Source: Pseudomonadota bacterium (lineage in GTDB: Bacteria > Pseudomonadota > Gammaproteobacteria > Steroidobacterales > Steroidobacteraceae). From it: a stretch of 64,000 nucleotides of DNA. Below, in pieces: positions 4,879 through 40,736 of this stretch. The notes under the pieces are model-generated. The model was not told the DNA's origin, did not search any database, and saw only the letters and a list, made by a program, of their open reading frames with translations. The stretch spans positions 1 through 64,000 of the forward strand of contig JAJZDX010000026.1 in NCBI GenBank assembly GCA_021805865.1, given 5' to 3'. A program made the translations under genes and the position numbers. Numbering within the stretch: position 1 is the stretch's first letter; each line of letters begins with the position of its first letter.

Positions 4879-5949
4879 ATGAAATTCGTCGACGAAGCGA
4901 AGCTCCGCGTGCAGGCCGGCAATGGTGGCCGAGGCAGCACCAGCTTTCGCCGCGAGAAGTTCGTTCCCTTCGGCGGGCCCGATGGCGGTGACGGCGGTCA
5001 CGGAGGTAGCGTGTTCCTGCAAGCGGCCGCCGGCATCAATACCCTTGCGGACTTCCGGATCGAGCGGACGTGGCGCGCGCAGCATGGCGAGCCGGGCTCG
5101 AGCCGGGATTGCACCGGTCGAGGCGGCGAGGATCTGTACATTCCCGTCCCGGTGGGCACCGTGGTGCGCGACGCCGAGACGGGCGAGGTGCTGGGGGACC
5201 TGGCTCACGAGGGTGAAGTGCTGCCGGTGGCCCGCGGCGGCAAGGGGGGCTGGGGCAATCAGCGATTCAAGTCGAGCACCAACCGTGCGCCTCGGCAGTT
5301 CGGGCCGGGGCTGCCGGGAGAGAAGCGCACGCTGGAGCTCGAGCTAAAGGTCATCGCCGATGTGGGTCTGCTGGGCCTGCCCAATGCCGGCAAGTCCACG
5401 CTCATCCGCGCCGTCTCGGCCGCCCGGCCGAAGGTCGCGGACTATCCCTTCACCACGCTGCATCCGCATCTCGGTGTGGTCCGTGTCGCTGAGCACCGCA
5501 GCTTCGTCATGGCCGATATTCCGGGCCTGATCGAGGGTGCAGCGGAGGGGGCTGGGCTTGGCATCCGCTTCCTGAAGCATCTGCAACGCACGCGGTTGCT
5601 GCTGCACCTGGTGGACATCGCCGATCCCGAGGCCGATCCGGTTGCGGATGCGCGCGCCATCGTTGGGGAGCTGGAGAAATTCAGCGCCGAGCTGGCCGGC
5701 CGGCCGCGCTGGCTGGTGCTGAACAAGTGTGATCTGATGACTGACCAGGAGGCCTCGCGGCGCGCGCAGACGATTTATCGCCGGCTGCGCTATCGCGGGC
5801 CTCGGTTTCTCGTCTCAGGCGCCACGGGTCGCGGGACGAAGGAACTCTGCGAAGAGGTTATGAAGTTTTTGGACGAGCAGGCTGCAGCTGCGCGCGAATC
5901 CGCAGCTGCTCGAGCAGATACAGACGGCGAGCAGCCGGCTTCAGCTTGA
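4879..5949 (+). CDS. obgE: Obg family ribosome-assembly GTPase
   Basis: A 356-aa GTPase acting in 50S maturation and stress signalling. Residues 1-158 form the glycine-rich Obg fold ([17 protein letters not shown]). The G domain follows with G1 [10 protein letters not shown] (~167), the DIPG switch motif and NKCD (~281). The C-terminal tail is short and acidic/Ala-rich. The position behind rplU-rpmA is the classic arrangement. The ribosome binding site is weak; the start is set by the family N-terminus. Confidence 0.97.
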
Positions 5950-6008
5950 GGGGTGCCGGCAAGGGGGCCGGCGAGGTGACGTGCGCTTTGCTGACGTCCA
6001 TCATCGCC

Positions 6009-6272
6009 TCATTGCATCGCCCGGATGCGCGCCGCCAGACGGCTCTTGTGCCGGGCGGCCTTGTTACGGTGGATGATGCGTTTGTTGACCAGCGTGTCGA
6101 TGACGGGCAAGGCGGCCTTGAATGTCGTTTCGGCAGTCGGCTTGTCGCCGCCGGCTATGGCTGTGCTTACGCTGCGCACGGCGCTGCGCATGCGCGAGCG
6201 CAGTGCCACATTGCGGGCACGGTGTTTTTCGGCTTGGCGAGCCGCCTTTTCGGCGGACTTGGTGTTGGCCAC
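6009..6272 (-). CDS. rpsT: 30S ribosomal protein S20
   Basis: The 87-aa, very basic product starts MANTKSAEKAARQ and ends HKSRLAARIRAMQ, as S20 does; it binds 16S rRNA in the small subunit. It is transcribed leftward, divergent from ribF, a common gammaproteobacterial arrangement. Confidence 0.97.
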   Translation of the reverse strand: MANTKSAEKAARQAEKHRARNVALRSRMRSAVRSVSTAIAGGDKPTAETTFKAALPVIDTLVNKRIIHRNKAARHKSRLAARIRAMQ

Positions 6273-6322
6273 AGGCTCTCCGTCTACCTAAATTTCTGAG
6301 GTCCCCGTCGCGGGGGGCCGGT

Positions 6323-6351
6323 AGTCTGCGCAGGCAGGCCACCTTTGTCAA
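6323..6351 (-). promoter_or_regulatory. Candidate promoter for rpsT
   Basis: On the minus strand a perfect -35 TTGACA (6351-6346) is followed after 17 bases by CAGACT (6328-6323), about 50 bases before the rpsT ATG. The -10 is poor but the -35 and spacing are ideal. Confidence 0.45.
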
Positions 6352-6481
6352 TGGTGGTGGGGTAAGCTGGCGTGAGCGGTATCCTTGCCATGCGACCGAC
6401 GGACCTCGTCCGTCCAGCAAATCCTGTATTCTGTATGGCCTTTTGTGTCAATCGATGCATCGGTGGCGGCTCGGGCGGCTG

Positions 6482-7405
6482 ATGGAGCTCATTCGCGGAC
6501 TGACGGGCTTAAGCGACCACCGGCGGGGCTGTGCGGTCACCATCGGGACCTTCGATGGTATCCACCTCGGACACCAGGCGTTGCTCGCACGCCTGAGCGA
6601 GCACAGGGCGCGCCTCAACCGTGCGGCCATGGTGCTGACCTTTGAGCCGATGCCGCGCGAGTACCTTGCCTCCGGGCAGGCGCCGGCCCGGCTGACCTCG
6701 TTCCGCGAGCGTTGGCGGGTGCTCGAGCATCTGGGCGTGGACGTGGTGTGGGTGCTGCGCTTCGGCGAGGCGTTGCGCAACCTTTCGGGTGAGGACTTCG
6801 CGCGGCTGCTGGCGCTCGAGTTGCGAGCCCCGGTGGTCGTGGTGGGTCACGACTTCCGCTTCGGGCGCAATGGCGAGGCCACGGCCGAGGCGCTGCGGGA
6901 GGCCGGCCGTCGGTTGGGGTTCGAGGTGGACGTGGTGGCGCCGGTGACCCTGGATGGGGAGCGCGTGAGCAGCAGCGCGGTGCGCGCCGCGCTGGCCCGG
7001 GGAGACTTCGAGCAAGCCCGGCGGTGGCTGGGACGGCCGTACAGCATGATCGGCCGCGTCGCGAGCGGTAACCGCTTGGGCAGGAGGCTCGGCTTCCCGA
7101 CGGCGAACCTCGGGATCGAGCGGCTCCGCTCCCCGGTGGAGGGTATCTTCGCCGTGCGGGTGCACGGCATCGTGTCTGAGGCGCTGCCCGCTGTGGCGAG
7201 CCTCGGCCGTCGCCCGACGGTGGCCGGCGGCGAGCCGTTGCTGGAGGTGCATGTGTTCGATTTTTCCGCCGACCTGTACGGCCGGCGCATCGAGGTGGAG
7301 TTCGTGGCGAAGCTGCGTGACGAGGAGCGCTTTGCGGACCTCGATGCCCTCGTGGCACAAATGCACCGGGACGCGCGGGCGGCCCGGGCGATACTGAAAG
7401 CTTGA
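6482..7405 (+). CDS. ribF: Bifunctional riboflavin kinase / FAD synthetase
   Basis: This 307-aa enzyme phosphorylates riboflavin to FMN and adenylylates FMN to FAD. The N-terminal adenylyltransferase half has TIGTFDGIHLGHQAL near residue 20 and VSSSAVRAAL near 160. The C-terminal riboflavin kinase half has GNRLGRRLGFPTANL near 197. The frame is open upstream to 6122, but the family N-terminus fits the ATG at 6482. The ileS start follows within a few bases (ribF-ileS-lspA-ispH operon). I see no FMN riboswitch upstream. Confidence 0.95.
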   Translation: MELIRGLTGLSDHRRGCAVTIGTFDGIHLGHQALLARLSEHRARLNRAAMVLTFEPMPREYLASGQAPARLTSFRERWRVLEHLGVDVVWVLRFGEALRNLSGEDFARLLALELRAPVVVVGHDFRFGRNGEATAEALREAGRRLGFEVDVVAPVTLDGERVSSSAVRAALARGDFEQARRWLGRPYSMIGRVASGNRLGRRLGFPTANLGIERLRSPVEGIFAVRVHGIVSEALPAVASLGRRPTVAGGEPLLEVHVFDFSADLYGRRIEVEFVAKLRDEERFADLDALVAQMHRDARAARAILKA

Positions 7406-32363: not shown

Positions 32364-32657
32364 GGTGCGTCCCTCGGTCCGACGGCATTGCGGCGCTGAC
32401 TGAGCGCGGAGGAACGATAGGTTGATCGCCCTGTGAGGCGACGGCAAGTCCTGCGCAGGAGAGGGCGTCGGTTCCACCATCGGAGGCAGCGCCCGCCGGC
32501 CCGCTCGATGCGGAAAGTACAACAATTCCGCCGGGACCGGTGAGGATCGGGATCACCGGCGCCGTCTGCCGAGGAGGCGGGATCGCGGCCATGAGCCAGG
32601 CCGCAGCGGAGCAGGCCGGGATGGGGTATGGTTGCGGTTTTTGGGGGGGGTCGTCCC

Positions 32658-35600
32658 ATGAGCACAACCGCCTGCCGTGCGCGTATGCGCCGCTCGGCGC
32701 TCACGTTAGCGGGCTCGAGCCTGCTCATCTGCCTCGCCCTGCTCTGCGCCGGGCCCATCCAAGCCCGGCAATCTCCGCTGCGCGTGCCGTTCCCTGCGGC
32801 CACCGCGTTCGCGATGCGCGGGCCGCTGCCGCAGTCGGCCCTGGCAGAGCTGCATTGGCGCCTGGTCGGACCGTTCCGCGGCGGCTGGGCCACGATGGCG
32901 GCGGGCGTGCCTCAGGATCCCAATACGTTTTACATTGGCACCGCCGGCGGTGGCGTGTGGAAGACGGTGGATGCCGGCAGGACCTGGCAGCCGCTCGGCA
33001 ACAGGCTGCCGCCCTCGATCGGCGCCATTGCCGTCGCGCCCTCCTCGCCCGACACGATCTATGTCGGCACGGGCCAGGTCGCCCCGCGTTACGATGTGGG
33101 CGGCGGTGAGGGGGTGTTCAAGTCCACAAACGGGGGCAGGACGTGGCAGTCGCTCGGCTTGGCCGCTACGCGCCACATCGGGCGCATCTGGGTCGATCCT
33201 CACAACGCCAACGTGGTGCTGGTGGCCGCGCTCGGCCATCTCTATGGTCCAAACCCTCAGCGCGGCATCTATCGCTCGACCGACGGCGGCAAGACGTGGA
33301 AGCACGTCCTCTATATCAATGACCACACCGGCGTGGTCGACCTGGCCGCCGACCCGGCCGATCCGAACGTGCTGTTTGCGGCCGCGTGGCAGATGCGCGA
33401 CTGGCCATGGCTCGATTACTTCGAGCCGCACGGTGGCCCCGGCAGCGGCATTTATCGCTCCACGGACGGCGGGAAGACCTGGACGCGCCTCAGGGGCGGG
33501 GGCTGGCCGAAAGGCTCCCTCGGGCGCATCGGTCTAGCCGTCACCCATACCGCGCAGGGTACCCGCATCTATGCGGCCGTCGATTCCCTCACCCAGGGCG
33601 GCATCTGGCGGTCCGATGATGGCGGCAACCACTGGCAGCGCGTGAATGACGACGAGGATGCGTTCGGAAACTGGTATTTCGCGCGCCTCACCGTCGACCC
33701 GCGCAACCCCCAGGTGGTGTATTCCGCCGGGCGGTCGGTCCGGCGCTCCACCGACGGGGGGCGTACGTGGCATATCATCAAGGGAGCTCCGGGCGGCGAC
33801 GATTACCACTTCATTTGGCTCAATCCGCTGCACCCGGATTACTGGATCGTCGCCGCCGATCAGGGCGCGGCGGTCACCGTGGACGGCGGACGCAGCTGGA
33901 GCAGTTGGTACAACCAGCCCACCGGCCAGTTCTATCACCTCGCCGTGGACAACCGCTTCCCCTACTGGATCTACAGCGGCCAGCAGGACAGCGGCAGTGT
34001 CGCGCTCGCGAGCCGCAGCGACTACGGCTCGCTCACCCTGCGCGACTGGCATCCGGTGGGCGGCGATGAGCGCGACTACATGGTGCCCGATCCCGGCAAT
34101 CCGCACCTCGTGTTCGGGAGCGGGCTCGGGGGGCGGGTCACGCGCTGGGATGCGCGCACCGGCCAGGTCGCCAATGTCTCGCCGTATCCGCTCGACAGCT
34201 ACGGGGCAAATCCCCTGAAGGTGAAATACCGCTATGGGTGGGTGACGCCGCTCGTTTTCACGCCGACCAAGCCCCATGCGCTGCTGCTCGGCGCGCAGGT
34301 ACTGTTCCGCTCGAAGGACCTCGGGCGGACCTGGCGGGTCATCTCGCCGGATCTGACCGGGGCGGTCGCGGGCACGGCGGGCTGCGGCACGACCGCCACC
34401 GGGGAGCTCGCCCGCGAGTGCGGATTCGGCGTGATCAGCACCATCGCTCCCTCGCCGCTGAAGAACGGCGAGATCTGGGTAGGCACCGACAGCGGCCTCA
34501 TCCAACTCACCCGCGACGGCGGCAAGCATTGGGAAAACGTCACGCCGCCCGAGCTTGCGCCGTGGGAGAAGATCAGCGCCATCTGCGCCTCCAGCCTTAA
34601 CCCGGCGACGGCCTACGCCGCGGTGAACGATCGGCGCCGCGATGACTACCGCCCGCATGTATTCCGCACGCACGACTACGGCCGGACCTGGCGGCAGATC
34701 GTCAGCGGGCTCCCTCCGGAACAACAGGTGAAGTCGGTGGCGGCCGATCCGGTGCGAGCGGGGCTGCTCTTCGCGGGGACCACGGAGGGGGTATTCGTGT
34801 CCTTCGACGACGGCGGGCACTGGCAGTCGCTCTCGCTCAACCTGCCCAACGTCCGCGTGTCGGACCTGCTCGTCCATGACGATGCTCTCATCGCGGCCAC
34901 CGAGGGGCGGGCAATCTGGGTGCTGGATGACATAACGCCGCTGCGCCAACTCTCGGCAACCGCACTCGCCGCGCCCGCGCACCTGTTCGCGCCCGAAGTG
35001 GCGTTTCGGGTGCATCCCAACAACAATCAGGACACGCCGCTGCCGCCGTCCACCCCGCAGGGAGAGAATCCGCCGGCCGGCGTGCCGATCGATTACTGGC
35101 TGGGGCCGGGCACTCACGGGCCGGTCACTCTCGCGATCTACGATTTTCAGGGGCACCTCGTGCGCCGCTTCTCCTCCGATGAGATCCCCCGGCCCATTCA
35201 TGCGCACCGGTACTTCGCCAGGCGTTGGCTCAAGCCCGCCAAGCGGCTCTCGGCCGCGCCCGGCATGCACCGCTTCGTGTGGAATCTGCGCTATGCCCGG
35301 CCGCCGGCGATCTCGTATCGCTACAGCATTGCGGCGGTGTACGGCGAGAATACGCCGACCACCGTGCAGGGACCTTTCGTGCTGCCGGGTGTCTACCGGA
35401 TCGCGCTGAGCGCGGATGGGCGGCGCTACGGGGCGCCGCTCGTGGTACGCCTCGATCCGCGCGAGCATGTCAGCATGGCGGCCCTGCGGGCGCTGCTGTC
35501 GTTCAGCCGGAAGGCCGATGCGGGGCTCGCCCGCGCCAAGGCCCTGTACGACGCTGAGAAGCCGGCGCATCAGGCGCTCGCGAAGCTGGCGGAGGACATC

Positions 35601-35897
35601 CGCGCGGGGCACGGTCCGCGAGGGCTGCTGCCGCTCATCGAGCGCTTGAGCGCCGCCACGAAGGTTCACGGGCCGAAGGGCCTCACTGCCCTCAACGGCG
35701 AGATCAGCTCGCTCGAGGCCAACGCCGAGTCGGCGGACATGCTACCCACGTCGGCGGCGCAGGGCGCGCTCGCGGCATCGCTGAGATCGCTGCGCGCGGC
35801 GGATCGTCAGTGGCGCGCGAGCGAGCTGCAGATCCGGCGCCTCGAGCCGGCGTTGCATCGCGCCGGGCTGGCCCCGGTGCCGTTTGAGGGAAGCTGA
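32658..35897 (+). CDS. Exported Asp-box (BNR/VPS10-like) beta-propeller protein
   Basis: The 1079-aa product has an N-terminal signal peptide (ALTLAGSSLLICLALLCAGPIQA). About 11 Asp-box motifs of the S-x-D-x-G-x-T-W type occur between residues ~85 and ~740 (KTVDAGRTW, RSTDGGKTW twice, RSDDGGNHW, VTVDGGRSW, RTHDYGRTW, VSFDDGGHW and others), predicting one or two propellers as in sortilin/VPS10 and sialidase-like proteins. A beta domain follows (LVRRFSSDEIPRP), then a C-terminal helical region. Such proteins are often annotated as glycosyl hydrolase; I see no catalytic residues that prove it. An in-frame ATG at 32628 would add ten residues. Confidence 0.8.
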   Translation: MSTTACRARMRRSALTLAGSSLLICLALLCAGPIQARQSPLRVPFPAATAFAMRGPLPQSALAELHWRLVGPFRGGWATMAAGVPQDPNTFYIGTAGGGVWKTVDAGRTWQPLGNRLPPSIGAIAVAPSSPDTIYVGTGQVAPRYDVGGGEGVFKSTNGGRTWQSLGLAATRHIGRIWVDPHNANVVLVAALGHLYGPNPQRGIYRSTDGGKTWKHVLYINDHTGVVDLAADPADPNVLFAAAWQMRDWPWLDYFEPHGGPGSGIYRSTDGGKTWTRLRGGGWPKGSLGRIGLAVTHTAQGTRIYAAVDSLTQGGIWRSDDGGNHWQRVNDDEDAFGNWYFARLTVDPRNPQVVYSAGRSVRRSTDGGRTWHIIKGAPGGDDYHFIWLNPLHPDYWIVAADQGAAVTVDGGRSWSSWYNQPTGQFYHLAVDNRFPYWIYSGQQDSGSVALASRSDYGSLTLRDWHPVGGDERDYMVPDPGNPHLVFGSGLGGRVTRWDARTGQVANVSPYPLDSYGANPLKVKYRYGWVTPLVFTPTKPHALLLGAQVLFRSKDLGRTWRVISPDLTGAVAGTAGCGTTATGELARECGFGVISTIAPSPLKNGEIWVGTDSGLIQLTRDGGKHWENVTPPELAPWEKISAICASSLNPATAYAAVNDRRRDDYRPHVFRTHDYGRTWRQIVSGLPPEQQVKSVAADPVRAGLLFAGTTEGVFVSFDDGGHWQSLSLNLPNVRVSDLLVHDDALIAATEGRAIWVLDDITPLRQLSATALAAPAHLFAPEVAFRVHPNNNQDTPLPPSTPQGENPPAGVPIDYWLGPGTHGPVTLAIYDFQGHLVRRFSSDEIPRPIHAHRYFARRWLKPAKRLSAAPGMHRFVWNLRYARPPAISYRYSIAAVYGENTPTTVQGPFVLPGVYRIALSADGRRYGAPLVVRLDPREHVSMAALRALLSFSRKADAGLARAKALYDAEKPAHQALAKLAEDIRAGHGPRGLLPLIERLSAATKVHGPKGLTALNGEISSLEANAESADMLPTSAAQGALAASLRSLRAADRQWRASELQIRRLEPALHRAGLAPVPFEGS

Positions 35898-36059: not shown

Positions 36060-37307
36060 TTAATAGGCGAAGTACGGACCCATGCCGGCGGAGGTGTTCT
36101 CGCCGGCGATGGCCACGTACACGTCGCGACCGAAGAAGAACGGCAGCCCGAAGTCGAACGAGCTCTGGTTCGAGCCCGATACGCCAACATCATTGAATGC
36201 CGTGAATCCGGGGTTGGCCGTGAGCAGCGTCACCGCGTTGTCTATCGCGATCGCGACGCGGGAGACCGTGCCGTTTTGGTCGGAATTGGTGAGCGTGAAG
36301 GTGAGCGGCGAGGTCGGGCAGTAAAATCCGGGGGCCGCGGAGCCGGCGGGGCAGGCGGGGATCGCGCCGTCGTAGAAGAAATACGCGTTGGAGCCGGTGT
36401 CGAAGTACGAATCCGGCAGCGGCGTGCCGTTGAAGGTCGTCGTGATGTCGCCGGTCGAGGGATCGGCGGCGAGCACCGTGGCGGCGCTCATCGTGTTGTT
36501 ACCCTCGGTTCCGATGCCGAATATCAGCGCGCCGCTCAGGCTGCTCGCGCCGGCGGCGGAGACCGAGGGCAGCTCGACGATGACGCCATTGTCATCGGTC
36601 TGGAAATCGACGACGGGGTTGCGGACCTGCTCATTTTCGGCGACGGCGGATTGCGTACAGCCGCTTGCCGGACAGACGTAGTAGATCCCGTTGTCCGCAT
36701 TGGCGAGGCAGCGGGCACCGCAGTCCTGGGCGAAGGGGCCGATGCCGAGCAGACCATTGGCGCCGAAGGCCGCGACGGTGTCTTCCTGGGCTCCGGTGCT
36801 CGCGCACCCGCCGGGGACTGCGCCATAGGCCGGATCCCCGATCACCTGCACGGGAATGGCGCTTGCCGATTCGCCGCCGATGTGCACATCGGCGGTCTCG
36901 ACCGGACCCCAGCTGTAGCCGTCCGTGAACTGAGTGCACTCGAGGAGGGGCGCACCGTTCTCGCTCTCCTGCGGCAGGGCGAGGGCGAGCGTATTACCGG
37001 AGGTGTCCCGGGCGTTGGCGAGAATCCTCAGCCCGTACGAGCCGGTGTCGACCTCGACATCGTTGAACGTCTGGCACTGCGCCGCGCTGCCGGGAACGCA
37101 CACCGTGACGCTCACATACGGTATGTCGACTGAATGCCCGCCCGGACCGGCATCCACCGTCAGGGGCACGACATTGGATGCGGCGGGGGCGCTGTGCGCG
37201 CTCGTGCTGGCATCGGACACGCCGCCACCCGCCCCCGATGAGCCGCCGCCCCCGCAGCCGGCGACGGCGAGTGCCAGGGCGCACGAGAGGATCGCGAGTC
37301 GTCGCAC
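36060..37307 (-). CDS. DUF3443 lipoprotein with two DTGS motifs (copy 1)
   Basis: A 415-aa protein with a lipoprotein signal peptide (LALAVAGCGGGG, Cys at ~18) and Gly/Ser linker. It matches DUF3443 (TFNDVEVDTGSYGLRIL; GANGLLGIGPFAQDCG; FDFGLPFFFGRDVYVAI; ending GPYFAY). Two D-T-G-S sites, one early (~87) and one late (~300, SYFDTGSNAYFF), resemble the two catalytic loops of pepsin-like aspartic proteases. It is next to a second DUF3443 gene and a DUF2844 gene, all leftward. Export to the outer membrane or surface is inferred. Confidence 0.8.
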   Translation of the reverse strand: MRRLAILSCALALAVAGCGGGGSSGAGGGVSDASTSAHSAPAASNVVPLTVDAGPGGHSVDIPYVSVTVCVPGSAAQCQTFNDVEVDTGSYGLRILANARDTSGNTLALALPQESENGAPLLECTQFTDGYSWGPVETADVHIGGESASAIPVQVIGDPAYGAVPGGCASTGAQEDTVAAFGANGLLGIGPFAQDCGARCLANADNGIYYVCPASGCTQSAVAENEQVRNPVVDFQTDDNGVIVELPSVSAAGASSLSGALIFGIGTEGNNTMSAATVLAADPSTGDITTTFNGTPLPDSYFDTGSNAYFFYDGAIPACPAGSAAPGFYCPTSPLTFTLTNSDQNGTVSRVAIAIDNAVTLLTANPGFTAFNDVGVSGSNQSSFDFGLPFFFGRDVYVAIAGENTSAGMGPYFAY

Positions 37308-37419
37308 GGTGCCCCCTGATGGCGTGCTTGCTGGCGGCTGTAGCGGCGGGAGCGGGGGGAACTTGAGCCGTTGCCGGGTGGACCGGCGCCGGTCTCGGTA
37401 GGGGCGGGGCGCTGCGTGG

Positions 37420-37440
37420 GCCCGGCGAAGTCCGCCGGGC
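37420..37440 (-). terminator. Hairpin between the two DUF3443 genes
   Basis: GCCCGGCG and CGCCGGGC (8 bp) enclose AAGTC, 26 bases after the stop of DUF3443 copy 2 in the leftward direction. A second palindrome GACCGGC/GCCGGTC lies at 37381-37394. No T-run, so a weak or Rho-assisted terminator, or a processing site, is possible. Confidence 0.4.
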
Positions 37441-37465
37441 CGCGATGCCCGTCATCGGTCCCGGG

Positions 37466-38809
37466 TCAATAGGCGTAAAACGGGCCGTAGCCGGCCGAGG
37501 TGTCCGCCCCGGAGATGGCAACGTACACGTTGCGGCCGAAGAAGAACGGCAGACCGAAATCGAACGAGCAGTCGCTCGAGCCGCAGATGGCCGTCTGATC
37601 GCCGGCGTTCGCGCCGATGTCGTTGTATGCGGTATCCCCGTTGTTGAACAGCGTGCTGGCGTCGCCGACGTAGAAGGTCACGGGCGAGCTCGTCCCGGTC
37701 ATCGCGCCGCTCGAGTTCACCCCGTAGTTGGTGGCGCTCAGCGTGACCGTGGAGCTCGGGCAGAACCAGCCGGAAAGGCTCGAGCTCGTGCAGGGCGGGA
37801 TCGAGGTGTCGTTGAAGTAGTAGGCATTAGAGCCTGTATCGAACAGGGAGTAGGGGAGGGAATAGCCGTCGAAATCCGTGGTGACATCGCCGCTGGCGTT
37901 GGCGGTGAGCACGGTCTGCGCGGTCAGAGCATTGTTGCCTTCGGTGTCGATGCCGAACACGAGCGAGCCGGTGACCGTCGGCGCGCCGCCCGAGGAGATC
38001 GCGGGCAGCTCGATGATCACGCCGTTGTTGTCGGTCTGGAAGTCGGCCACGGGATTGGTCGCCTGCTCGGAGGTGTCGACCGCCGCGCCGACGCAGCTCG
38101 CGCCATTGGAGGGGCAGCTGAAGTAAACCCCGCTGTTTGCGGCATTGCTGCCCGTGGAGCAGCTCGTGCCGCAATCATGGGTGAAGGGACCGATGCCCAG
38201 GATGCCGTTGGCACCGAAGGTGGCGACCGTGTCCTCGTTGGTGCCGGTGGCGCTGCAGCCGGAGGGGATGGGTGGAAAGCTGGACTCGCCGCTCTGGGTG
38301 GGGTCGCCGATCACCTGGATCGGTACGCTGGCGGCCGATTCGCCGCTGATGTCGATATCAGCGGTTGCGATCGGACCCCAGCTGTAGCCGTCGACGAACG
38401 CGGTGCACTCGGCGATGGTATTGCCGTTGGGGTCGGTCTCGGCCGGCAGGTTGAGGCTCAATGGGTTGCCGTTGGCGTCGGTGGCGTCGGCGAGGATCCT
38501 GAATCCATACGAGCCGGTGTCGACCTCGATGTGATTGAAGGTCTGGCACTGGGTGGTGCTGCCGGGATAGCAGATCGTGACGGTCGTGTAGGGAATGTCG
38601 ACCGAATTGACGGACGTGCCATTGGGGCTGGGCCCGGCATCCACGACGATCGTGGCGACGTTGTTCGTTTGGCCGCTGCCCGAGCTGCCCGAGCTGCCTG
38701 TGCTACCCGAGCCGCCGGTGGTGACGCCCGCCCCTCCGCCTCCGCCGCAGGAGGCGATCGCGAGCATCAGCGGGACGAGCCCCAGTAAAAAGAGCGTTCG
38801 TGTGCGCAT
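37466..38809 (-). CDS. DUF3443 lipoprotein with two DTGS motifs (copy 2)
   Basis: A 447-aa paralogue of the neighbouring gene, with signal peptide and lipobox (LVPLMLAIASCGGGG) and a Gly/Ser linker. HIEVDTGSYGFRIL (~115) and YSLFDTGSNAYYF (~330) repeat the pair of DTGS motifs; GANGILGIGPFTHDCG and FDFGLPFFFGRNVYVAI are shared with copy 1, as is the GP-aromatic-AY end. Extra cysteine-containing loops differ. The ATG at 38809 is used; the frame open to 38917 has no signal peptide at its start. A local tandem duplication followed by divergence explains the pair. Confidence 0.8.
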   Translation of the reverse strand: MRTRTLFLLGLVPLMLAIASCGGGGGAGVTTGGSGSTGSSGSSGSGQTNNVATIVVDAGPSPNGTSVNSVDIPYTTVTICYPGSTTQCQTFNHIEVDTGSYGFRILADATDANGNPLSLNLPAETDPNGNTIAECTAFVDGYSWGPIATADIDISGESAASVPIQVIGDPTQSGESSFPPIPSGCSATGTNEDTVATFGANGILGIGPFTHDCGTSCSTGSNAANSGVYFSCPSNGASCVGAAVDTSEQATNPVADFQTDNNGVIIELPAISSGGAPTVTGSLVFGIDTEGNNALTAQTVLTANASGDVTTDFDGYSLPYSLFDTGSNAYYFNDTSIPPCTSSSLSGWFCPSSTVTLSATNYGVNSSGAMTGTSSPVTFYVGDASTLFNNGDTAYNDIGANAGDQTAICGSSDCSFDFGLPFFFGRNVYVAISGADTSAGYGPFYAY

Positions 38810-38828: not shown

Positions 38829-39302
38829 CTAGTGAAGATCGGAGAGGGAAACGCCCGAGGGCAGGAGCGAGGGCACGTACGCCATGCCGAAGAATGCGCG
38901 CATGTGGCCGCCGGCATGCACGACGAACTTCGCGCTGGTCAGCTCGATGTGGTTGCGCCCGAATCGCTGGGTCTTCTCCGCCGCCTTCAGCTGGCTGAAG
39001 TACTGGCTGCCCAGGGTCTGCTCGAGGTTCGGCATGGTCGGTCCGTGCCAGCTGACGGCGAAAACGATGCCGGCGGGGGACACGAATTCCTTTACCACCG
39101 TGCCGGAGGGCAGGGTGATCTCCTCCACGGTATAGCCGATGCCGGTCCGCTGGCGCAGCTGCCCTTTCATCCTGGCCCGATCGGCCGACACCGAGGCGAC
39201 CGGCTGGCCGAGGCCGGCGCGGGCGGGCGCATGAGCGGATCCGAGCAGCAGGCCGGTACCGAAGAGGAGGGTGGCTGCGAGGGGGGGGTGGATGGCTTTC
39301 AT
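38829..39302 (-). CDS. DUF2844 family exported protein
   Basis: A 157-aa product with a signal peptide (LAATLLFGTGLLLGSAHAPARA) and a compact domain (GIGYTVEEITLPSGTVVKEFVS, GIVFAVSWHGPTMPNL, HIELTSAKFVVHAGGHMRAFFG) matching DUF2844. It precedes the two DUF3443 genes with a 19-base gap, a combination known from other proteobacteria, and is probably co-transcribed with them. Function unknown; likely periplasmic. Confidence 0.82.
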   Translation of the reverse strand: MKAIHPPLAATLLFGTGLLLGSAHAPARAGLGQPVASVSADRARMKGQLRQRTGIGYTVEEITLPSGTVVKEFVSPAGIVFAVSWHGPTMPNLEQTLGSQYFSQLKAAEKTQRFGRNHIELTSAKFVVHAGGHMRAFFGMAYVPSLLPSGVSLSDLH

Positions 39303-39626: not shown

Positions 39627-40290
39627 CTAAATATCCGCCCCGAGTGTCCATGATCTTGGACGCGGGGTCGGCAGCGGCAGGGGGGCGGCCAGCCTCGGGA
39701 GGCGTCGATAGACGCGCCGTGTGAGGGCTGCGGACTGGTGTCCCATGCGGTCGGCGGCGGCCTGATCAGAGTCCGCGTCACTCGCGGGCTTTGCCCTGAG
39801 ATCGTGGAGGCGCGAGCGCTGCCCGCCCGCGGCAACACAGGCGCTCATCGTCCTGTGCCCAAGAGTCTTGGAGCCGTCCGGCGCGTACGGCTTTCCCTCC
39901 CACGTGCAGATCAGCGCGGCCCGCAGCCGCAGCGGCTCGCGCAAGAGCGCGTCAACAGTCCGTCCAGATCGTCGCTCCACCGGATGACCTGCTGCTCGCC
40001 CGCCTTGCAGCGGGTGAACGGGAGTCCCGCGTCGGTGATGTGACGCCGCTCGAGCGCGAGAAGCGTGGAGCCATCCCGTCCGCGGGGCAGCGCCAGGTCC
40101 ATCGCGTACTGCACCATCGGTGGCGCGAGCGCGGCTACGGCGAGGAATTCCTCATCGGTCACGTAGCGCTCACGCGGCTGCCCGCCGGGTAGCCGCAGGC
40201 CGTGGCACGGGTTTGGCGCGGACAGCATCCCGATCCGGCGGGCGAAGGTCATGACAGCAGACAGCAGGCGCATCACGCCCTCGCGGCGGA
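39627..40290 (-). pseudogene. Decayed tyrosine-recombinase integrase at tRNA-Asp
   Basis: Leftward segments reconstruct the central and C-terminal parts of an integrase: MRLLSAVMTFARRIGMLSAPNP, RERYVTDEEFLAVAALAPPM and LLALERRHITDAGLPFTRCKAG in one frame, then LICTWEGKPYAPDGSKTLG, SRLHDLRAKPASDAD (HxxR) and MGHQSAALTRRVYRR (GH and the Tyr) in another, with a frameshift near 39950. The N-terminal core-binding domain is missing or unrecognisable. The C-terminal end faces tRNA-Asp, marking an old integration there. Confidence 0.8.
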
Positions 40291-40448
40291 CATGCCAATC
40301 AGCTCCGTGCCGAAGGCACACTCCTCGAGGCAAATGCTTATCGCGCGTTCTATGGCGGCCCACGGCTCCTCCCCTTGCGGATAGCCGCAAAACTGGGTTG
40401 CCGGCGGACCCGTGGCGGCGCGGGTCCGTCGATGGCGGCGCGCCGGCG

Positions 40449-40736
40449 GGTCCCTTTCGGTTCTGGGGCGACTTGGATTTCGCGGGTATGCAGATCCTGA
40501 AGGCCCTGCGCAACCGCTTTGAGGGGCTCAGCGCCAGGAGACCCGGCTGCGAGTCGATGCTGGAAGCGCTCCGAAGCCGGGGCGGGTACAGGCCGTTCGG
40601 GCCCGGAGAGTCCGGCCAATCCGATCCGCACCTGACCGGATGTTCGTTTGCGGATACCGTGCTGGTGCCGGCCATCGGCCGGCACGGCCCGCTCGATCAG
40701 GAGTGCGTGACGCAGATGACACGGCGCTGCCCGTAG
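40449..40736 (+). pseudogene. JetD-like (DUF2220) C-terminal remnant
   Basis: The rightward frame encodes PFRFWGDLDFAGMQILKAL, then RRPGCESMLEALRSRGGY and DPHLTGCSFADTVLVPAIG, ending soon after LDQECVTQ. This resembles the C-terminal Toprim-like DUF2220 domain of JetD, the nuclease subunit of Wadjet anti-plasmid systems, including the acidic WGDLD motif. Upstream sequence in this frame is not protein-like and no JetA, JetB or JetC is present, so it is a truncated relic of about 96 codons. The assignment rests on remembered motif similarity. Confidence 0.5.

Follow-up and report, generated by a model that had tools for sequence, protein, structure and literature searches.

Bilobal pepsin-type proteases had been thought nearly absent from bacteria. 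PMC2761423 reports them from seven of 914 bacterial genomes, in all cases without signal peptides. A surface-bound bacterial aspartic protease can be active, as described in PMC6819658 for PecA of Mycobacterium marinum, which is located at the cell surface and processes other surface proteins. For the Pfam families DUF3443 and DUF2844, by contrast, no paper was found under their names or their Pfam and InterPro accessions in the open-access literature (subscription journals lay outside the scope), and the papers listed as matching PF11005 share only that letter string and all concern Plasmodium. No paper on either family was retrieved from the open-access literature on pepsin-like aspartic lipoproteins in Burkholderia. 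What is added here is an aspartic-protease reading of DUF3443 and its gene pairing with DUF2844. We consider it quite probable that the DUF3443 family consists of pepsin-like aspartic peptidases of clan AA, two-lobed and held by a lipid anchor.

The window, meaning the whole 64-kb stretch of DNA that was analysed, carries a DUF2844 gene (39302-38829) followed on the minus strand by two DUF3443 genes, P0002 (38809-37466) and P0001 (37307-36060). The features of this module are the following.

36060..37307, minus strand: P0001 (415 aa), the later gene of the tandem pair; a DUF3443 lipoprotein whose two DTGS loops contain D87 and D303
37466..38809, minus strand: P0002 (447 aa), a DUF3443 lipoprotein whose two DTGS loops contain D97 and D324
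38829..39302, minus strand: P0003, 157 aa, DUF2844, putative secreted partner, signal-peptide-like N-terminus by eye
38747..38749, minus strand: codon of the P0002 lipobox Cys21 (IASC-GGGG), Cys in 107/115 aligned members and a gap in 5
37254..37256, minus strand: codon of the P0001 lipobox Cys18 (VAGC-GGGG), read from sequence
38519..38521, minus strand: P0002 D97, predicted first catalytic Asp (VDTGSYG), in 115/115 members
38396..38398, minus strand: P0002 F138, which probably occupies the place of flap Tyr75, Phe in 114/115
37838..37840, minus strand: P0002 D324, predicted second catalytic Asp (FDTGSNA), in 114/115 members
37047..37049, minus strand: P0001 D87, predicted first catalytic Asp, by motif position
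36399..36401, minus strand: P0001 D303, predicted second catalytic Asp, by motif position

An earlier sequence-only reading had placed two DUF3443 reading frames at these coordinates, and both were confirmed on the minus strand as DUF3443 by Pfam (5e-129 and 2.2e-118 for the two proteins); P0003 is assigned to DUF2844 at 1.2e-38. The DUF3443 model is matched over its full length in both window proteins (430.8 and 395.8 bits against a curated cut-off of 25), and the Pfam names for all three products denote unknown function only. The P0003 stop codon lies 19 nt from the P0002 ATG and a gap of 158 nt separates P0002 from P0001; promoter and terminator scans at the module gave signals near shuffle level. 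The N-termini of P0001 and P0002 are alike, with a hydrophobic segment, then the lipobox Cys, then a Gly-rich linker. Upstream of the module, recombinase-like reading frames were seen by eye at 39627-40675. A 1089-aa open reading frame on the plus strand (32628-35897) converges with the module and has the look of a BNR/sortilin-type propeller, by eye only.

Conservation was assessed in an alignment of 115 DUF3443 members, of which 113 are distinct over the last 360 residues (two identical pairs) and 90 share less than 80% identity with one another. These members are not a random sample, comprising the best matches listed and the lowest-scoring genes of a 150-genome family sample, and three short fragments as well as ORFs under 330 aa were left out of the counts. 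Median pairwise identity was 43% among 54 representatives assembled earlier. The architecture read from these sequences consists of a lipobox Cys followed by Gly, a Gly/Ser linker, and one domain with two hhD[TS]G[ST] loops, a hydrophobic-hydrophobic-Gly (psi-loop) motif after each, and a flap-like hairpin after the first loop.

Both loops were found where the sequence-only reading had put them in P0001 (D87 and D303), as was the second loop of P0002 (D324), whereas the first Asp of P0002 is residue 97 and not ~115. The spacing, which that reading gave as about 200 residues for pepsin-fold proteases, is 216 in P0001 and 227 in P0002. Invariance of the two Asp residues also held, but for a single member that lacks the second, while the Gly of the first motif proved less regular than that reading implied: it is kept in 100/115 members and replaced by A, Q, M, E or H in the other 15/115. 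The second-motif Gly is kept in 115/115. The residue after the first DTG is Ser in every member (115/115), and the one after the second is Ser or Thr in 114/115. The Gly of both hydrophobic-hydrophobic-Gly motifs (G205, G419) is conserved in 115/115 and mostly preceded by I/V-L and by D-W/F/L, respectively, the psi-loop assignment following from order and spacing, not structure. At the probable flap-Tyr75 position, where A1 proteases carry Tyr, Phe is found in all but one member. Each of ten further Cys residues (80, 88, 135, 185, 213, 217, 232, 239, 340 and 350) is shared by between 100 and 115 of the 115 members. One member, the solo gene L114 (G801:C6), has DTHS as its first motif and has lost the second Asp; this DUF3443 copy is likely dead.

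Two h-h-D-[TS]-G-[ST] motifs arose in 1/20000 composition shuffles of P0001 and 11/20000 of P0002. Because shuffles rarely give two loops and the family keeps them, chance was rejected as the source of the DTGS pair. A comparison of the N- and C-lobe profiles of DUF3443 has its optimum precisely on the two DTGS loops (P 0.0074), and the lobes align only around those loops. Likeness between lobes that is confined to the DTG loops is what PMC2761423 describes for pepsin.

Relatedness to known aspartic proteases was assessed by a member-by-member Pfam scan of 53 DUF3443 proteins. PE-PGRS_C, an aspartyl peptidase-like family, matches lobe 1 of 2/53 members (L071, residues 40-158, 8.2e-6; L052, residues 39-160, 2.9e-5) at 25.8 and 24 bits, under its curated cut-off of 33. 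Sub-threshold Asp_protease_2 matches occur in 4/53 members, in lobe 1 of L042 and in lobe 2 of L047, L052 and L067 (0.0088 to 0.12). These four fall on the DTG loops and nowhere else, and the family Asp lies near profile position 15-16 in both lobes, as calculated from the alignment end points. Other Pfam families in the scan were at chance level. The A1 model PF00026 (Asp) is matched by 0/53 members at E<=1, and membership of that family was rejected on this ground; P0001 and P0002 themselves match no clan AA Pfam model at E<=1. Comparison of the DUF3443 profile with 17 bacterial A1 proteins by hhalign gave a probability of 0.9%, which is not significant, and against these proteins and porcine pepsin its best real score, 3.1 bits, stayed within what shuffles reach (top null 7.9). 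When the PDB was searched by sequence, P0002, L071, and the 53-member and 15-member profiles retrieved unrelated chains only and no aspartic protease.

A sequence bridge was found in L044 (G637:C33), from a genome outside the class. Its domain P0004 matches Asp_protease_2 at 2e-8, over the cut-off and in two stretches, and also matches gag-asp_proteas (2e-5), DUF3443 (1.6e-4, positions 42-125), PE-PGRS_C (0.031) and Asp (0.025), with the Asp_protease_2 and DUF3443 matches covering the same DTG-to-flap stretch. When L044 is aligned with DUF3443, DTG falls on DTG and the flap Tyr on F138 (SYSSG..SG on F138..G141...G145), and the best-scoring window of porcine pepsin (ITYGTGSMTG) gives the same flap register. 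The L044 host protein is a 4118-aa open frame in which the two-lobed clan AA aspartyl-protease-like domain is followed by PD40 propeller repeats.

Scoring-matrix blocks derived from DUF3443 find their best windows in porcine pepsin on D32, on the flap and on the psi-loop of the C-lobe. Tested against shuffles with the two Asp as anchors, the flap and psi-loop blocks gave p=0.0015 for pepsin and p=0.0095 for the bacterial A1 protein L078, in which the C-lobe block lands on LGLPLLCGR (P0002 counterpart FGLPFFFGR). The anchored test fell under 0.05 in only 6/18 A1 proteins, and the shewasin-like ones mostly misplace the blocks. The hhG1 and hhG2 blocks carry little weight, since in pepsin the former peaks over the flap strand instead of the true psi-loop and the window of the latter is shifted by two residues.

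Structure models of both window proteins were built from alignments of 6 sequences each, although 115 members are known, and their mean pLDDT is 41.9 for P0002 (60-74 in parts of residues 31-80) and 34.6 for P0001. A Foldseek search of the PDB with the P0002 model gave 489 matches at E<=10 and none at E<=0.001 (best E 1.2e-3); the best 50 of the 489 matches to this low-confidence model are all aspartic proteases (pepsins, BACE, renin-like proteins and HIV protease). VIA-align likewise matched residues 21-204 of the P0002 model with Z up to 5.8, where a Z under 8 may reflect a common arrangement, and the 50 matches listed are aspartic proteases only. The P0001 model retrieved no aspartic protease from the PDB (best E 1.5). 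Matches to the fold proposed by the sequence-only reading for both proteins were obtained for lobe 1 of P0002 and not for P0001. Because the models are weak and P0001 retrieves nothing useful, structural support is limited to one lobe of one protein, for which the predicted structure is suggestive of a pepsin fold.

The distribution of DUF3443 is patchy. It occurs in 3/274 genomes of the class, in 2/194 and 1/2 genomes of two other orders, and in 30/60 relatives, all 30 in one genus. Named matches lie on plasmids or secondary replicons of Burkholderia, Paraburkholderia and Caballeronia and in metagenome-assembled Pseudomonadota. A plasmid search found DUF3443 in five records; two bacterial A1 proteins searched against plasmids gave no match. 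None of 14 pattern matches in viral contigs is a DUF3443 relative, and no relative was found in phages. On plasmid pBGF2 of Burkholderia glumae (L109, 23-kb), a DUF2844-DUF3443 pair lies between chemotaxis and flagellar genes, and a Paraburkholderia plasmid (L081) has a gene annotated as a site-specific integrase (5836-7104) immediately upstream of its pair. P0001 and P0002 are old tandem copies, judged by a quick tree that places P0001 beside the L014 tandem copy (support 1.0) and P0002 beside L003 and L004.

A DUF2844 gene lies directly upstream, on the same strand, of 67/71 DUF3443 ORFs in a first set, the exceptions (L014 twice, L015 and L037) being contig or locus ends or second tandem copies. 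A distance filter gave 66/71 because the DUF2844 of L041, though adjacent, has a long linker. In a second set of 45, for which the lowest-scoring genes were deliberately taken and five plasmid loci added, DUF2844 is upstream in 39/45 and absent at L083, L084, L110, L112, L113 and L114. At L083, L084 and L113, the gene directly upstream is instead one for a TRAP solute-binding protein of the TAXI type, which looks like an exchange of partners. In 54/62 listed loci, the end of the DUF2844 ORF is 60-100 nt away from the lipobox Cys codon that follows it. The DUF2844 family itself gave few leads: a Pfam scan yielded one PepSY_2 match at 0.073 among chance-level rows, too weak for use, and PDB profile matches (mainly designed helical or repeat proteins; best 2.5e-7, 14 sequences) were taken as a compositional artefact of the variable N-terminal half. 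The frequent adjacency of the two genes points to a two-part protein-cutting system.

The core claim of the sequence-only reading, an aspartic-protease-like bilobal lipoprotein in a family of unknown function, is supported by the conservation of both Asp residues, the flap and hhG motifs, the sub-threshold model matches in lobes 1 and 2, and the L044 bridge. A pepsin-type fold may still have ceased to cut and serve as an anchored binding protein or inhibitor, and non-cutting eukaryotic A1 relatives, the pregnancy-associated glycoproteins and xylanase inhibitor, are named in PMC2761423. The near-universal flap Phe, the first-motif Gly lost in some members and the one member without a second Asp are in keeping with such a protein; the same paper states that no Phe75 homologue had been shown to be active and reports that a Tyr-to-Phe change weakened the activity of rhizopuspepsin. 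However, a dead fold is expected to lose its dyad, like the non-peptidase relatives, whereas DUF3443 keeps both Asp residues and the Ser/Thr after each Gly with at most one exception, and we regard loss of cutting across the family as unlikely. It would be highly improbable for the DTGS loops to have arisen by coincidence or convergence in a beta-rich domain of unrelated origin: the lack of a significant whole-length sequence match to known aspartic proteases and the low confidence of the models speak for it, but four motif types occur in pepsin order, aspartyl-protease models match in both lobes, L044 bridges the families, and the Foldseek matches listed for the P0002 model are all aspartic proteases. 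A plain retropepsin dimer (A2 type, single lobe) was rejected because each window protein combines two DTG loops in a single chain.

The pairing with DUF2844 has to be weighed against mere co-inheritance, in which case DUF2844 and the peptidase would not be partners. The six low-scoring genes of the second set without DUF2844 would fit this, as would the correlation between DUF2844 and DUF3443 distances (104 pairs, r=0.77, 0/1000 permutations, nearest neighbour agreeing in 61), which relatedness alone could give, as for any co-inherited pair. Nonetheless, both families exceed their cut-offs in the same seven of 299 genomes of a phylum sample, and in the 150-genome family sample DUF3443 is present in 67 and DUF2844 in 66, the odd one (G873) having a partial match, with up to seven copies per genome. 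Because the two families co-occur in this way, the pair appears to have been kept through repeated duplication and loss, and mere co-inheritance seems rather unlikely.

If DUF3443 proteins are aspartic peptidases, they are probably active where both motifs are intact, and those in which the first Gly is replaced or an Asp is missing, such as L114, may be inactive. Under the Lol rule, lipoproteins with Gly at +2 are sorted to the outer membrane. DUF3443 would be exported through Sec, receive its lipid at Cys21 and, on account of its Gly at +2, be sorted to the outer or inner face of the outer membrane. The linker would tether the domain, and its two lobes would bring D97 and D324 together, so that the pair could activate water for the cutting of a peptide bond beneath a flap in which F138 replaces Tyr75. 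Ser/Thr at the Thr218 position would fit an acidic rather than a neutral pH optimum. DUF2844, with its own signal peptide and encoded just upstream, would be the dedicated partner of DUF3443, most likely as an inhibitor, a propeptide-like chaperone or a substrate of the peptidase. We tentatively raise the possibility, itself somewhat doubtful, that DUF2844 and DUF3443 form an envelope proteolysis module not described before, in which a pepsin-type peptidase anchored in the outer membrane acts with a secreted partner of its own (an inhibitor, a chaperone or a propeptide working in trans) and which reaches up to seven copies per genome in Burkholderia-type bacteria.

If this reading is true, bacteria hold a lipid-anchored branch of the pepsin fold that is common in some Burkholderia-type genomes (67/150) and has its own partner gene, and the origin of the two-lobed fold becomes testable on more bacterial sequences. 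It would also offer a concrete assay for two families of unknown function and, for Burkholderia-type bacteria, a means of probing an envelope process with pepstatin-type compounds.

Among described families, the window proteins are full-length members of DUF3443 (PF11925) and DUF2844 (PF11005), which carry no functional family name. DUF3443 shares the D[TS]G loop of the retropepsin-like families (Asp_protease_2 PF13650, gag-asp_proteas PF13975, RVP), which match either lobe weakly in 4/53 members, but it has two lobes per chain where these have one, and the scores stay under cut-off. With pepsin family A1 (PF00026; bacterial members such as shewasin) it shares two hhD[TS]G[ST] loops per chain, hydrophobic-hydrophobic-Gly motifs in each lobe, and a flap-like segment that starts at +39 from the first Asp, compared with +41 in porcine pepsin. 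It differs from A1 in the Phe that replaces the flap Tyr, in its 0/53 matches to Pfam Asp, and in an inter-Asp spacing of about 227 residues versus 183 in pepsin; the bacterial A1 proteins of PMC2761423 are without a signal peptide, whereas DUF3443 has a lipobox and linker. The best aspartyl-protease model match to DUF3443 members, though under cut-off, is PF20729 (8.2e-6), the PE-PGRS C-terminal domain of mycobacterial PecA and PE_PGRS16, which like DUF3443 carries a DTG/DSG pair in one chain (PMC6819658). Those proteins are anchored through PE/PGRS and type VII secretion, whereas DUF3443 has a lipobox.
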